Assembly (NCBI RefSeq): GCF_002220365.1
Contig: NZ_MTHB01000036.1
Span: forward strand, 1 to 64,000
Length of the DNA: 64,000 bases
Origin: Caballeronia sordidicola
GTDB taxonomy: Bacteria > Pseudomonadota > Gammaproteobacteria > Burkholderiales > Burkholderiaceae
Reading direction: 5' to 3'
Below the pieces are notes generated by a model. That model was given only the letters and a program-made list of their open reading frames with translations. It was not told where the DNA came from and ran no database searches. This document shows positions 26,342-33,730 of the stretch, piece after piece (within the stretch, counting starts at the first letter, position 1; each line of letters starts with the position of its first letter). The position numbers and the translations under genes were made by a program.

Positions 26342-27583
26342 TTAGAACCGCGAGGCTACGCTACGCAAACGCGTGACCCGGCTGAAAATCGTGTAACACG
26401 CACACGCGACAATAATCGAATCGAGCGAAGGGATGCTCGTGAAGGAAAACACGCCCTTCACCGTCATGAACCCGGCCAGCGACCCGATGATCCACGCAAC
26501 GAAGGTCAGCACCTTCACCTGCGGATCGGTCTCGAGCAGCCGCTCGTCATACCCGCCCCGCCGATACAGCAGAAAGTCGGCTATATAAATCCCGGCCACC
26601 GGCGGCGTCGCGATTCCCAGAAAGAGCAGAAACGGGATGAACCACGCCATGATGTCCATGCTGCCGACAATCACCGCGAGCACGCCCAGCGCGACGGTAA
26701 TCTGCCATTTCGGGAACCGCGTGAACAAGGTTGAAACGACTAGCGTGCCTTGAAACATGTTCCCGGCATTCCCCGTTACGGTCGCAAAAATGAGCAGTAA
26801 AGCGGCCGGCAGCACGGCCCCGAACACGGCCATGGCGCCGAGCAAGGACCCTTTGCCGGATATCCCGCTCGGCGTGGCTCCCGCCCAATACAACAACGGA
26901 TAAGCGATCAGGAACGTCAGCACCGCGCCAATCAACGCGTGCTTGCGGTTATGAACGAAGCTGCCGAAATCAGGCAACGTGGCCACCAGCACAATGATGG
27001 TCCCGACCACGGTGGAAACCGCCACGCCCGTATTCATATCGGTGAACCCGCCTGGCACCGGGACCATTCCGTGAGCTGCGACATAGACGCAATAACACAG
27101 CATCAACGCGATGACGGGTATCGCAAACTGAGCGACCTTCCCAAGCAGTTCGAAACCAAAAGCCGTAGCGGCCACAAAGATCACGCACCCCGCCGCAACC
27201 AGCGCAGGCACCGGTATGTCGACGCCCTGTTGCGCCAGCAGATCGTGCACCGAATGCCCGAACATATTGGCAGTCACGGCAATCCACCCGAACAAACTGA
27301 TCGCGAGCAGGACGTTGATGGCGATCGCCCCTTTTTCGCCGAACGGATATTTAACGATGCCGTACGTTGGCAGCCGCGCCTTCTCGCCGACACAAATGGT
27401 GATTGCGGAAAGGAGGGTCAGGATGATGCCGCCAATGACCACCACTTTGATCAACGCCAGACTCGAGAGCTGACTCCCCAGACTGGAGGAGGAGAGTAAA
27501 ACCGGCGTAATGGCAATGCCCAATAAAATCATGGCGATGCGATACCCCGGCGCCGTATTCGGGCCTTCGTCAGTGTTACGCAT
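26342..27583 (-). CDS. NCS1-type nucleobase/ureide permease
   Basis: 413 residues from ATG 27583 with GGGGAAC upstream. About twelve transmembrane helices with the layout of the cytosine permease branch (CodB-like) of the NCS1 family: 'GWIAVTANMFGHSVHDLLAQ', 'LPDFGSFVHNRKHALIGA', 'FLLFLGIATPPVAGIYIADFLLYR'. Such proteins import cytosine, allantoin, hydantoins or other ureides with H+ or Na+. It is the last gene of the seven-gene leftward operon, 28 bases after the AH_C gene. The context suggests it imports the pathway's substrate; the substrate itself cannot be read from sequence. Confidence 0.85.
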   Translation of the reverse strand: MRNTDEGPNTAPGYRIAMILLGIAITPVLLSSSSLGSQLSSLALIKVVVIGGIILTLLSAITICVGEKARLPTYGIVKYPFGEKGAIAINVLLAISLFGWIAVTANMFGHSVHDLLAQQGVDIPVPALVAAGCVIFVAATAFGFELLGKVAQFAIPVIALMLCYCVYVAAHGMVPVPGGFTDMNTGVAVSTVVGTIIVLVATLPDFGSFVHNRKHALIGAVLTFLIAYPLLYWAGATPSGISGKGSLLGAMAVFGAVLPAALLLIFATVTGNAGNMFQGTLVVSTLFTRFPKWQITVALGVLAVIVGSMDIMAWFIPFLLFLGIATPPVAGIYIADFLLYRRGGYDERLLETDPQVKVLTFVAWIIGSLAGFMTVKGVFSFTSIPSLDSIIVACACYTIFSRVTRLRSVASRF

Positions 27584-27611
27584 ACAAATGTTCCCCGGAG
27601 GTTTCGAGCGG

Positions 27612-28004
27612 TCAGGCGGAATAGAAATGGCCGGTATAGGCACGCCAGCTTCCGTGCGCGGTGATGTCCTTCTGGTTGTCGACCAGCCAGGGTTCGGCCA
27701 GCACGCCCAACACCTGATTGCCGTCGCGAAGCGTCACCTTGCCGATCGCGAGACCAGCCGGTTCGCTCAACAACAAAGCAGCGAACGACGCGAGCGGCAA
27801 TTCCCAGATCTCGAGCGCGACCGACGTTCCGCCTGCCGCCACGCGGATCATTCCCGGATGGCGATCGCCAATGCTCCAGAGCCTGTAATGCGGGTCGGTG
27901 TGATCTTCACGCAGGAACACGCCGCCCGCCGCGGTCATGTTGCCGTTCAGTTCGAGCCCGCGCATGAGCGTGCCGTTGACGGCCAGCAACGTAGTGTTGT
28001 TCAT
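27612..28004 (-). CDS. Free-standing allophanate hydrolase C-terminal (AH_C) domain protein
   Basis: 130 residues from ATG 28004 (GAAGG site; a TTG 21 bases upstream is less likely). The whole protein corresponds to the C-terminal domain of allophanate hydrolase (AtzF/DUR1 family): 'LAVNGTLMRGLELNGNM', 'FLREDHTDPHYRLWSIGDRHPGM', 'SVALEIWELPLASFAALLLSEPAGLAIGKV'. No amidase domain is present. In full-length enzymes this domain completes hydrolysis of the reaction intermediate and supports assembly. It lies between the carbamate kinase and permease genes. Its separate existence suggests work on a carbamoylated or carboxylated amide made by the same operon (inference). Confidence 0.82.
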   Translation of the reverse strand: MNNTTLLAVNGTLMRGLELNGNMTAAGGVFLREDHTDPHYRLWSIGDRHPGMIRVAAGGTSVALEIWELPLASFAALLLSEPAGLAIGKVTLRDGNQVLGVLAEPWLVDNQKDITAHGSWRAYTGHFYSA

Positions 28005-28067
28005 CTGTCTGCCTTCGTTCTTCAATAAAATGGGTATTGCTAAATAAAATGTCCACGACTCGAACCA

Positions 28068-32102: not shown

Positions 32103-32154
32103 GCCATCAATCTGATTAACTCAATAATGGTTTTCAGCTAACCCGTTTAACGGA

Positions 32155-33045
32155 TCAGTTCATTTCTTTTTGCTCCACCTTTCCAAGCACTCTTATTCCG
32201 TGCAGGAAACCTCCGAGACAGTCTGCGCCAGACGACGAACCGAATTTCATGACATTGATTGCCGAACGTTTCACGTCTGCCGGTGGACTTCCGTGAATCA
32301 GGACGGTCGTCAAATTATCAATTGACTCAGAATAGTGTCCCTGCAACGCAAGCTCCAGATAATGCCGGCTGATACTGGTCGTCTGGTGAAGCTGACTCTT
32401 TATTGCCGGACGCAATAGTTTCAAATGGGCGGATATGGCACCGAGACGTTGCCACGGCCATAACGACGCCAGATAACCCAACAGGAAATCGTCGCCGTCC
32501 GGTGTCAGCCCTGCGCCATACCCAATCAGTTCCGACACCCCACTTTCCAACTCCGCCTTTGCGTCGCCGAGGTTCAAGCGAGGATTGCGTCCTCCGGACG
32601 GCCAGCCCGGCAGCAATCGCAGGCTGCTGCGCACCTCGCGCTCCATGCAGTACTCCAACAACTGGCTCGCCAGCAACGGATAAGCGGCCAGCATCGCGTC
32701 CAGCGAATGGCCGCCTGGCGCCCGGTCCATTCCAGGCCGCCAGCACGGTGCCCGGCTCAGGTTTGCGCGCCAGAGTGTGCCGCGCAACTCGTTGTTCTCG
32801 AGTGTGACGGGCTCCCGGGAATGCGCTTGATGGCGCCAATCCCAGCCAGGCGGCGTCGAAAGCCTGATAGCCGTGGGCAAATTCTGATAACGCGGGCTCA
32901 GCAAGGTCAGCAACTCGCCACTCGCCGACGACAAGTTCATCGCGTGTTGAAAGCAGCTATGCACCCAGAACCGCAGCGTCTCGCGCGGCCCGTGCTCCGC
33001 CATATAGCCCACCGAGCACACAGGGAACGTGAGGAGGCGTGCCAT
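32155..33045 (-). CDS. DUF2877 protein, AllH/YlbF-type carbamoyltransferase subunit
   Basis: 296 residues from ATG 33045; a TTG at 33084 would overlap the upstream gene by 23 bases. The DUF2877 signature 'GYGAGLTPDGDDFLLGYL' is intact, and the C-terminal 'GSSSGADCLGGFLHGI' is also conserved. The Escherichia coli homologue YlbF (AllH) completes the oxamate carbamoyltransferase. It sits 16 bases after the BiuH-like gene. Base composition is slightly more AT-rich near its 3' end than the flagellar genes. Confidence 0.85.
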   Translation of the reverse strand: MARLLTFPVCSVGYMAEHGPRETLRFWVHSCFQHAMNLSSASGELLTLLSPRYQNLPTAIRLSTPPGWDWRHQAHSREPVTLENNELRGTLWRANLSRAPCWRPGMDRAPGGHSLDAMLAAYPLLASQLLEYCMEREVRSSLRLLPGWPSGGRNPRLNLGDAKAELESGVSELIGYGAGLTPDGDDFLLGYLASLWPWQRLGAISAHLKLLRPAIKSQLHQTTSISRHYLELALQGHYSESIDNLTTVLIHGSPPADVKRSAINVMKFGSSSGADCLGGFLHGIRVLGKVEQKEMN

Positions 33046-33061
33046 GGCTGCCCGGCCGGCC

Positions 33062-33730
33062 TCAAGCGCGCAAGCCGTCGACAATGGCCGCGGCGTCGCT
33101 GACCCAGCCGAAGATTGCGCCCTGCGCCTTGATCATCTCCAGCGCCGACTTCTGGAATTCCGGGAAATACGACCCGACGCAGTCCGCCGGAATAATGCAC
33201 TCATAGCCACGGTCATTGGCTTCGCGAACGGTCGTGGTCACGCAGACCTCAGTTGTCACGCCGCACACGATAAGCGTCTTGATCCCGTGGTTTTGCAGGA
33301 TCAGCTGCAGGTCGGTTTCATAGAACGCGCCCTTACCCGGTTTGTCGATGATGGGTTCGCCGAACGCTGGATACAGTTCGGGAATGATGTCGTGCCCTGC
33401 TTCGCCGCGAACCAGGATGCGGCCCATGGGGCCGTCGGTGCCAATGAACGTCTTGCCGCCGCGCGTCAGTTTCGCGGGCGGGCAATCGGCCAGGTCGGCC
33501 CGATGACCTTCACGCGTATGGATCACCAGCAGCTTCGCATCTCGCGCGGCCTTCAACACTTTCCCGCACGGGACAATCGCGCTGCGCACCAGGGAGACGT
33601 CATTTCCCAATGCTTCGCCAAAGCCTCCCGGTTCAACAAAATCACGCTGCATGTCGATCACGACTAATGCAGTTGTTTGCGATTCGAATGAGAGCGGAAA
33701 TGGTTGCGCGTGAAATAGTTTTTGGGGCAT
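33062..33730 (-). CDS. Isochorismatase-fold amidohydrolase, BiuH (biuret hydrolase)-like
   Basis: 222 residues. The cysteine-hydrolase triad is visible: Asp in 'ALVVIDMQRDFVEPGG', Lys in 'IDKPGKGAFYETDLQ', and Cys in 'CGVTTEVCVTTTVREANDRGYE'. The combination 'IHTREGHRADLADCP', 'RILVRGEAGHDIIPELYP' and 'DKPGKGAFY' follows the biuret hydrolase branch, near RutB and N-carbamoylsarcosine amidase. Expected chemistry: hydrolysis of a ureido or biuret-type amide, releasing NH3. It is the first gene of the leftward operon, with AGGAAT before the ATG. Biuret itself as substrate is inference from motif similarity. Confidence 0.85.
   Translation of the reverse strand: MPQKLFHAQPFPLSFESQTTALVVIDMQRDFVEPGGFGEALGNDVSLVRSAIVPCGKVLKAARDAKLLVIHTREGHRADLADCPPAKLTRGGKTFIGTDGPMGRILVRGEAGHDIIPELYPAFGEPIIDKPGKGAFYETDLQLILQNHGIKTLIVCGVTTEVCVTTTVREANDRGYECIIPADCVGSYFPEFQKSALEMIKAQGAIFGWVSDAAAIVDGLRA

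Follow-up and report, generated by a model that had tools for sequence, protein, structure and literature searches.

A candidate phosphorolytic, ATP-recovering triuret pathway in a seven-gene operon of Caballeronia sordidicola

Triuret is a product of urate oxidation by peroxynitrite and an impurity of urea fertiliser (PMC7948467). Its hydrolase, TrtA, shares the product 1-carboxybiuret with cyanuric acid hydrolase (CAH; PMC7948467, PMC6219798), while the allFGHK operon of Escherichia coli encodes oxamic transcarbamylase (OXTCase) together with a carbamate kinase (PMC11326118). Relatives of both systems are found side by side in a minus-strand operon of Caballeronia sordidicola (contig NZ_MTHB01000036.1), located at 26342-33730 between flhA and flhF in the 64,000-nucleotide stretch that was analysed as a whole (hereafter the window). 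Based on sequence comparison, this operon probably encodes a phosphorolytic, ATP-recovering triuret pathway. Its seven genes are, in operon order:

33062..33730, minus strand: TrtA-type isochorismatase-fold hydrolase (predicted triuret hydrolase), 222 aa; best PDB relative 6xix (TrtA), 258 bits; TrtA residues
32155..33045, minus strand: AllH-like subunit (DUF2877), 296 aa; Pfam AllH 78 bits
30461..32017, minus strand: AllF/FdrA-like subunit, 518 aa; NCBIfam FdrA 484 bits, cut-off 433
29047..30453, minus strand: AllG-like subunit (DUF1116), 468 aa; Pfam AllG 324 bits
28068..29027, minus strand: carbamate kinase (AllK-like), 319 aa; NCBIfam arcC 362 bits, cut-off 358
27612..28004, minus strand: stand-alone AH_C protein, predicted decarboxylase, 130 aa; Pfam AH_C 142 bits; best PDB relative 5c5z
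26342..27583, minus strand: NCS1-family (CodB-like) permease, predicted importer, 413 aa; Pfam Transp_cyt_pur 43 bits

In the pathway we propose, triuret would be imported by the NCS1 permease and hydrolysed by the TrtA-type enzyme to 1-carboxybiuret and NH3, as its TrtA-distinguishing residues suggest. A complex of AllF, AllG and AllH, related to OXTCase, would then transfer the terminal carbamoyl group of 1-carboxybiuret to phosphate, giving carbamoyl phosphate and allophanate; alternatively, it might act on biuret (formed spontaneously or by AH_C) to give carbamoyl phosphate and urea. From carbamoyl phosphate, the kinase would produce ATP and carbamate, the latter ending as NH3 and CO2. The AH_C protein might strip an N-carboxy group, turning allophanate into urea or carboxybiuret into biuret, and this is the least certain step. 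That AllFGH phosphorolyses the TrtA product is likely from the comparisons below and, if so, we lean moderately towards carboxybiuret itself as the substrate rather than biuret.

The first enzyme is of the TrtA type judging by its active-site positions and is thus a predicted triuret hydrolase. Six positions separate TrtA from BiuH (F35, N41, A134, E160, Y187 and I205 versus Y, Y, S, D, T and V; PMC7948467), and the window protein has the TrtA residue at all six and, likewise, Q202, with the Asp/Lys/Cys triad of the fold kept (D24, K129, C162). It reached 267 bits on the NCBIfam BiuH equivalog, below the cut-off of 370, and these two lines of evidence ruled out the BiuH function. The first-pass annotation had called this protein BiuH-like, a label that has to be given up as a statement of function, given the triuret-hydrolase positions and a separate BiuH over the cut-off (414 bits) elsewhere in the same genome, near a second TrtA-pattern protein. 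The six positions also divide the reference pairs of Rhizobium johnstonii 3841 and Agrobacterium plasmids, each of which consists of one TrtA-pattern and one BiuH-pattern protein. Across 86 cassette hydrolases, a set that includes some loci taken twice from different collections, E160, Y187 and I205 are invariant, F35 and N41 occur in all 85 readable rows (one row is gapped), A134 is found in 64 (S in 22) and Q202 in 84 (L in 2). The A134S change was not deleterious in a published TrtA assay (PMC7948467). A pyrimidine (Rut-like) role in nitrogen acquisition has been proposed for the E. coli copy of the gene set (PMC12928451) and would suit both the CodB-like permease and the distant relationship of the hydrolase to RutB (95-100 bits), but TrtA 6xix is by far the nearer PDB relative (258 bits) and the specificity residues are those of TrtA, which leaves this explanation with very little probability.

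The cassette is widespread and mobile, being found in both proteobacteria and actinobacteria. From a scan of genome contigs, 80 of 127 confirmed relative loci were analysed; loci shorter than 4000 bases were left unannotated (L087 among the 80). Besides these, 23 of 31 places came from an actinobacterial set (one more, L086, being in the analysis already) and 17 of 20 from another set. TrtA and AllF occur together in 73 loci (5.7-5.9 kb apart in four Nitrospira-type ones), two have CAH instead, and the remaining five are truncated at a contig end or fell below the length needed for annotation. An AH_C match accompanies TrtA and AllF in 70 of the 73. Carriers include Caballeronia, Budvicia, Serratia, Buttiauxella, Vibrio, Shewanella, Aeromonas, Silvimonas, Nonomuraea and mycobacteria. 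The E. coli version was matched with at least 80% query coverage in 1543 of 5426 complete E. coli genomes, i.e. more than a quarter, and all matching places together are 1488 chromosomal and 127 plasmid ones. In E. coli clone D i14 the cassette adjoins ysgA and a tkt gene, the setting named GR 29 (PMC12928451), and a plasmid copy from E. coli shares 71-81% identity with the window in its TrtA, AH_C and NCS1 proteins. Published expression data for uropathogenic E. coli (UPEC; PMC7439467) were set aside as evidence, as they concern the K-12-type all genes and not the cassette. The 14 mycobacterial loci (e.g. L086, L093, L095) have no recognisable AllH, and 13 of them encode kinase and AH_C in one frame.

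By profile matches, most sampled carriers have a triuret-type hydrolase without the known enzymes for its product. We surveyed 50 carrier genomes chosen from the 80 loci (two CAH-type, one cut at a contig end), calling AtzF from an AH_C match in an open frame of at least 601 aa outside the cassette and urease from a match with E <1e-48. BiuH exceeded its cut-off in only 3 genomes and a separate AtzF-length protein was present in 17, so that 32 had neither; a strong urease match was found in 23 and none in 27. This gap would be closed by AllFGH and the kinase, provided that AllFGH splits carboxybiuret phosphorolytically to allophanate, or biuret to urea.

The window contains an OXTCase-type set of AllF, AllG and AllH proteins with a carbamate kinase, i.e. 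all four protein kinds of E. coli allFGHK. One alternative is an oxalurate/oxamate pathway, with AllFGH acting as an oxamic transcarbamylase, like its E. coli counterpart, and the TrtA-like protein completing the route as an amidohydrolase for oxamate or a related compound. AllF and AllG do share 40% and 48% identity with their characterised counterparts in E. coli (PMC11326118), but identities to YahF (43%) and YahG (48%) are equally high. Moreover, a tree of 78 AllG proteins places the window in a clade of 37 rows (support 99), with the E. coli OXTCase AllG outside it; members of this clade have TrtA within 9 kb (32 rows), a ring-opening amidohydrolase (2) or no usable neighbour call (3). 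This tree comprised the window and 77 of 147 fetched AllG rows, after dropping rows at least 88% identical to a kept one and excluding pieces below 330 aa or with a score below 250. Because AllG stands in its own clade with TrtA or ring-opening amidohydrolases as neighbours, the set appears not to be of the E. coli allantoin-route type. Relatives carrying these genes as part of a characterised allantoin pathway, which would have spoken against the first-pass annotation, were not encountered in the clade: AllC or AllD lay within 9 kb of 3 of the 147 AllG rows in the fetched loci, none of the three in the window's clade, in a sample that leans to close relatives. Taken with the triuret-type residues of the hydrolase and the exchange of TrtA for CAH on plasmids described below, this makes the oxalurate/oxamate pathway improbable. 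The earlier statement that other allantoin genes are missing is correct at the locus but not genome-wide, since allantoicase genes lie elsewhere in the genome. Distant AllG paralogues without AllF nearby were also seen (L026-L028, L123-L125), several with allantoinase/hydantoinase-like matches in the same stretch.

The exchange of the first enzyme argues further for 1-carboxybiuret as the common intermediate. In the Aeromonas, Klebsiella and Serratia plasmids examined, a ring-opening amidohydrolase and an NCS2 permease head AllH-AllF-AllG-kinase-LysR, and TrtA and the stand-alone AH_C are absent. This ring-opener is a CAH by sequence, with 584 bits to CAH 6bum versus 324 to barbiturase 5hwe and 581 on the NCBIfam CAH equivalog (cut-off 360). 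The AllG of the plasmid set is about 79% identical to that of the window, with which it nests (row L058) in a 14-row clade (support 96), and the AllG proteins of L062, L134, L263 and L264 are 98-100% identical to L058. A 15.3-kb stretch containing CAH, AllHFGK and atzF is covered to 80% or more by nine plasmid records, all of which name atzF, as expected if allophanate is made. The CAH gene itself occurs in 48 plasmid records at 90% identity or more and heads CAH-NCS2-AllHFGK-LysR in the three examined (L134, L263, L264). Several of the records come from clinical or shower samples, and a link to chlorinated isocyanurate disinfectants would be speculation. Three plasmids, including pTC1 (L130, L131, L132), have atzC as the immediate downstream neighbour of a fragment of AllG and a gene for carbamate kinase. 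In an actinobacterial locus (L228), NCS2 and AllKHFG are accompanied by an AtzC/cytosine-deaminase-like gene, which hints at the origin of atzC.

Ring-opening amidohydrolases also adjoin five actinobacterial AllFGH clusters and L116. The NCBIfam CAH equivalog was passed by L225, L229, L230 and L116, while the L235 piece narrowly missed it (352 versus 360). However, the two compared with PDB chains are nearer barbiturase than CAH (L225, 538 vs 309 bits; L116, 482 vs 305), and the actinobacterial ring-openers were thus discarded as CAHs, leaving the plasmid enzyme as the only one counted. Further neighbours are NCS2 permeases (L225, L229, L230, L235), PucR (L225, L230) and a xanthine-dehydrogenase-type protein (L225, L229, L235). 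The combination of ring-opener, NCS2 and AllKHFG in L225, L229, L230 and L235 might represent an oxidative pyrimidine route to carbamoyl phosphate, the ring-opener being barbiturase-like in L225, the sole one of the four compared. The product of barbiturase is ureidomalonate, and oxalurate, ureidomalonate and carboxybiuret have one plan, -OOC-X-CO-NH-CO-NH2. A broader generalisation, which we advance tentatively and rate somewhat short of even, is that AllFGH enzymes are general carbamoyl-phosphate-forming phosphorolases for such ring-opened ureido-carboxylates, the window clade being a 1-carboxybiuret transcarbamylase and AH_C a new N-carboxy decarboxylase acting with this clade.

The window's AH_C protein consists of the AH_C domain only, without the AtzF amidase domain, and has NGTLMRG in place of the GAH(L/M)xG at the start of the AtzF C domain. 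At position 13, all 84 kinase-adjacent rows, the window included, have L. Of the 11 remaining rows, 10 have H, and the odd one out (L079) belongs to a cassette in which no kinase had been annotated. Seventeen of the 73 loci encode AH_C and kinase in one open frame (13 mycobacterial, 2 Burkholderiales, 2 Rhodobacterales), and a full AtzF downstream of the mycobacterial kinase was rejected as an option, as annotation shows a kinase-AH_C fusion. The nearest structure, 5c5z, is presumably the UPEC protein c4763. The C domain of AtzF decarboxylates an N-carboxy compound, and the stand-alone AH_C may likewise be such a decarboxylase, its exact substrate being the least certain point of our proposal. 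One variant of the triuret pathway, in which AH_C decarboxylates carboxybiuret to biuret and AllFGH makes carbamoyl phosphate and urea, would agree with this domain function, with the fusion of AH_C to TrtA in L207 and with its position directly after TrtA in three Nitrospira-type loci. Carboxybiuret also decays to biuret by itself, with a half-life of about 20 min. On the other hand, biuret lacks the carboxylate common to oxalurate and ureidomalonate, atzF beside CAH on the nine plasmid records would be superfluous, and the CAH clusters do without a stand-alone AH_C. Further, more than half of the carriers (27 of 50) are without a strong urease match, although they might excrete the urea. We thus regard the biuret variant as rather unlikely and retain phosphorolysis of carboxybiuret as the preferred form of the pathway.

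Several observations weigh against a triuret pathway of this kind. Ring-opener clusters, both on plasmids and in actinobacteria, lack the stand-alone AH_C even though those on plasmids would go through the identical intermediate, so the AH_C step does not fit simply. Fifteen of the 50 carriers have neither an AtzF-length protein nor urease, so that any urea or allophanate they form would go to waste. The window's host could in principle do without the cassette, because this genome has another TrtA and BiuH pair and, on another contig, an AtzF-length AH_C protein, and some copies in Caballeronia look decayed. AllF or AllG was found near CAH-family genes in none of 10 loci (299 Pseudomonadota genomes; 16-20 kb per locus), which led us to reject a general CAH-AllG link. 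The AllG tree was built by a quick method, its root is uncertain and the branches near the root are long, and the window's clade may serve more than one substrate, because L116, a member, adjoins a barbiturase-like protein. Finally, AllH had no match in 18 of the 73 TrtA-AllF loci (14 of them mycobacterial), so that the three-subunit enzyme is not always in sight. The comparisons support the core of the first-pass annotation, i.e. that a ureide would be hydrolysed first, its carbamoyl group passed to phosphate and ATP recovered. Its remark that the substrate may be undescribed seems misplaced: the substrate is probably a known compound, triuret, and it is the phosphorolytic route that appears undescribed.

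The layout of the locus agrees with a single operon, as proposed earlier: seven minus-strand frames with matches to Isochorismatase, AllH (DUF2877), FdrA/AllF, AllG (DUF1116), carbamate kinase, stand-alone AH_C and NCS1 (Pfam/NCBIfam) are separated by 7-137 bases (16, 137, 7, 19, 63 and 28 along the operon), and repeats inside the operon did not go beyond short imperfect pairs. Two further features flank it:

26299..26323, minus strand: terminator-like stem of 11 pairs with a T run, 3' of the last gene
33731..34281, minus strand: AT-rich upstream intergenic region (promoter inferred), 48% GC

Both had been claimed before and were confirmed in part. The stem with its T run (26323-26299) is present, but terminator-like sites in the region (8) are no commoner than in shuffles (mean 7.8). 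The first 270 upstream bases (33731-34000) have 39% GC versus 61% for the window and a promoter in the AT-rich region is plausible, but a search of its minus strand gave no sigma-70-like site. A LysR profile had no match within the window, while a LysR gene adjoins the cassette in many gamma-proteobacteria.

The flanking genes lie on the plus strand, with flhA ending at 26295 and flhF starting at 34282. Six order-level relatives have only 0-124 bases between flhA and flhF. For six genus-level relatives that lack the cassette here, the roughly 7 kb before flhF showed no flhA. Measured against the order, the site thus reads as an insertion, the genus not being uniform. The suggested flhA-flhF position was seen in Caballeronia-type loci only, eight fetched loci having FlhF next to the cassette; the other loci show no FlhF beside it. 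Among the decayed-looking Caballeronia copies, L303 is reduced to AllH and a TrtA, in two frames between flhA and flhF, with the other five genes missing. In the copy from C. udeis (L033, G355), the hydrolase frame contains a stop and the kinase match is split over two frames.

If the proposed pathway is correct, it would provide a function for an uncharacterised gene set of those 1543 E. coli genomes and account for TrtA in many genomes without BiuH. Carboxybiuret would have a third route beside the two published ones (PMC6219798), and bacteria could earn ATP from triuret and, via plasmids, from cyanuric acid. Moreover, the substrates of the DUF1116, DUF2877 and FdrA families become directly testable.

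Among the matches listed from the open-licence literature, we found no proposal of triuret or carboxybiuret phosphorolysis to carbamoyl phosphate. The gene set of the window is the same as that of E. coli GR 29 on the tkt1 island, whose genes are listed as uncharacterised and interpreted in terms of pyrimidine/carbamate nitrogen use (PMC12928451). Co-location of trtA/biuH with allFGHK has already been noted in nitrifiers, where the clusters were read as adjoining oxalurate and triuret/biuret pathways, and the relevant sections of that study propose no carbamoyl transfer from carboxybiuret (PMC12625717). With the E. coli allFGHK operon (PMC11326118), the window has AllF-, AllG- and AllH-type proteins and a carbamate kinase in common, but its AllG belongs to another clade, AllF and AllG are only 40-48% identical, no allantoin genes adjoin, and TrtA or CAH is found instead. 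The cyanuric acid routes atzDGEHF of Pseudomonas ADP and CAH-BiuH of R. leguminosarum 3841 likewise pass through 1-carboxybiuret, which they deaminate (AtzEG) or let decay to biuret, whereas the window route would phosphorolyse it (PMC6219798). The TrtA-BiuH-AtzF triuret pathway of Herbaspirillum sp. BH-1 (PMC7948467) has the same type of first enzyme, with identical discriminating residues in the active site. In contrast to that pathway, the window operon has no BiuH or AtzF and possesses a stand-alone AH_C and an NCS1 permease, and AllFGH and the kinase would take over from the missing hydrolases, thereby conserving energy.

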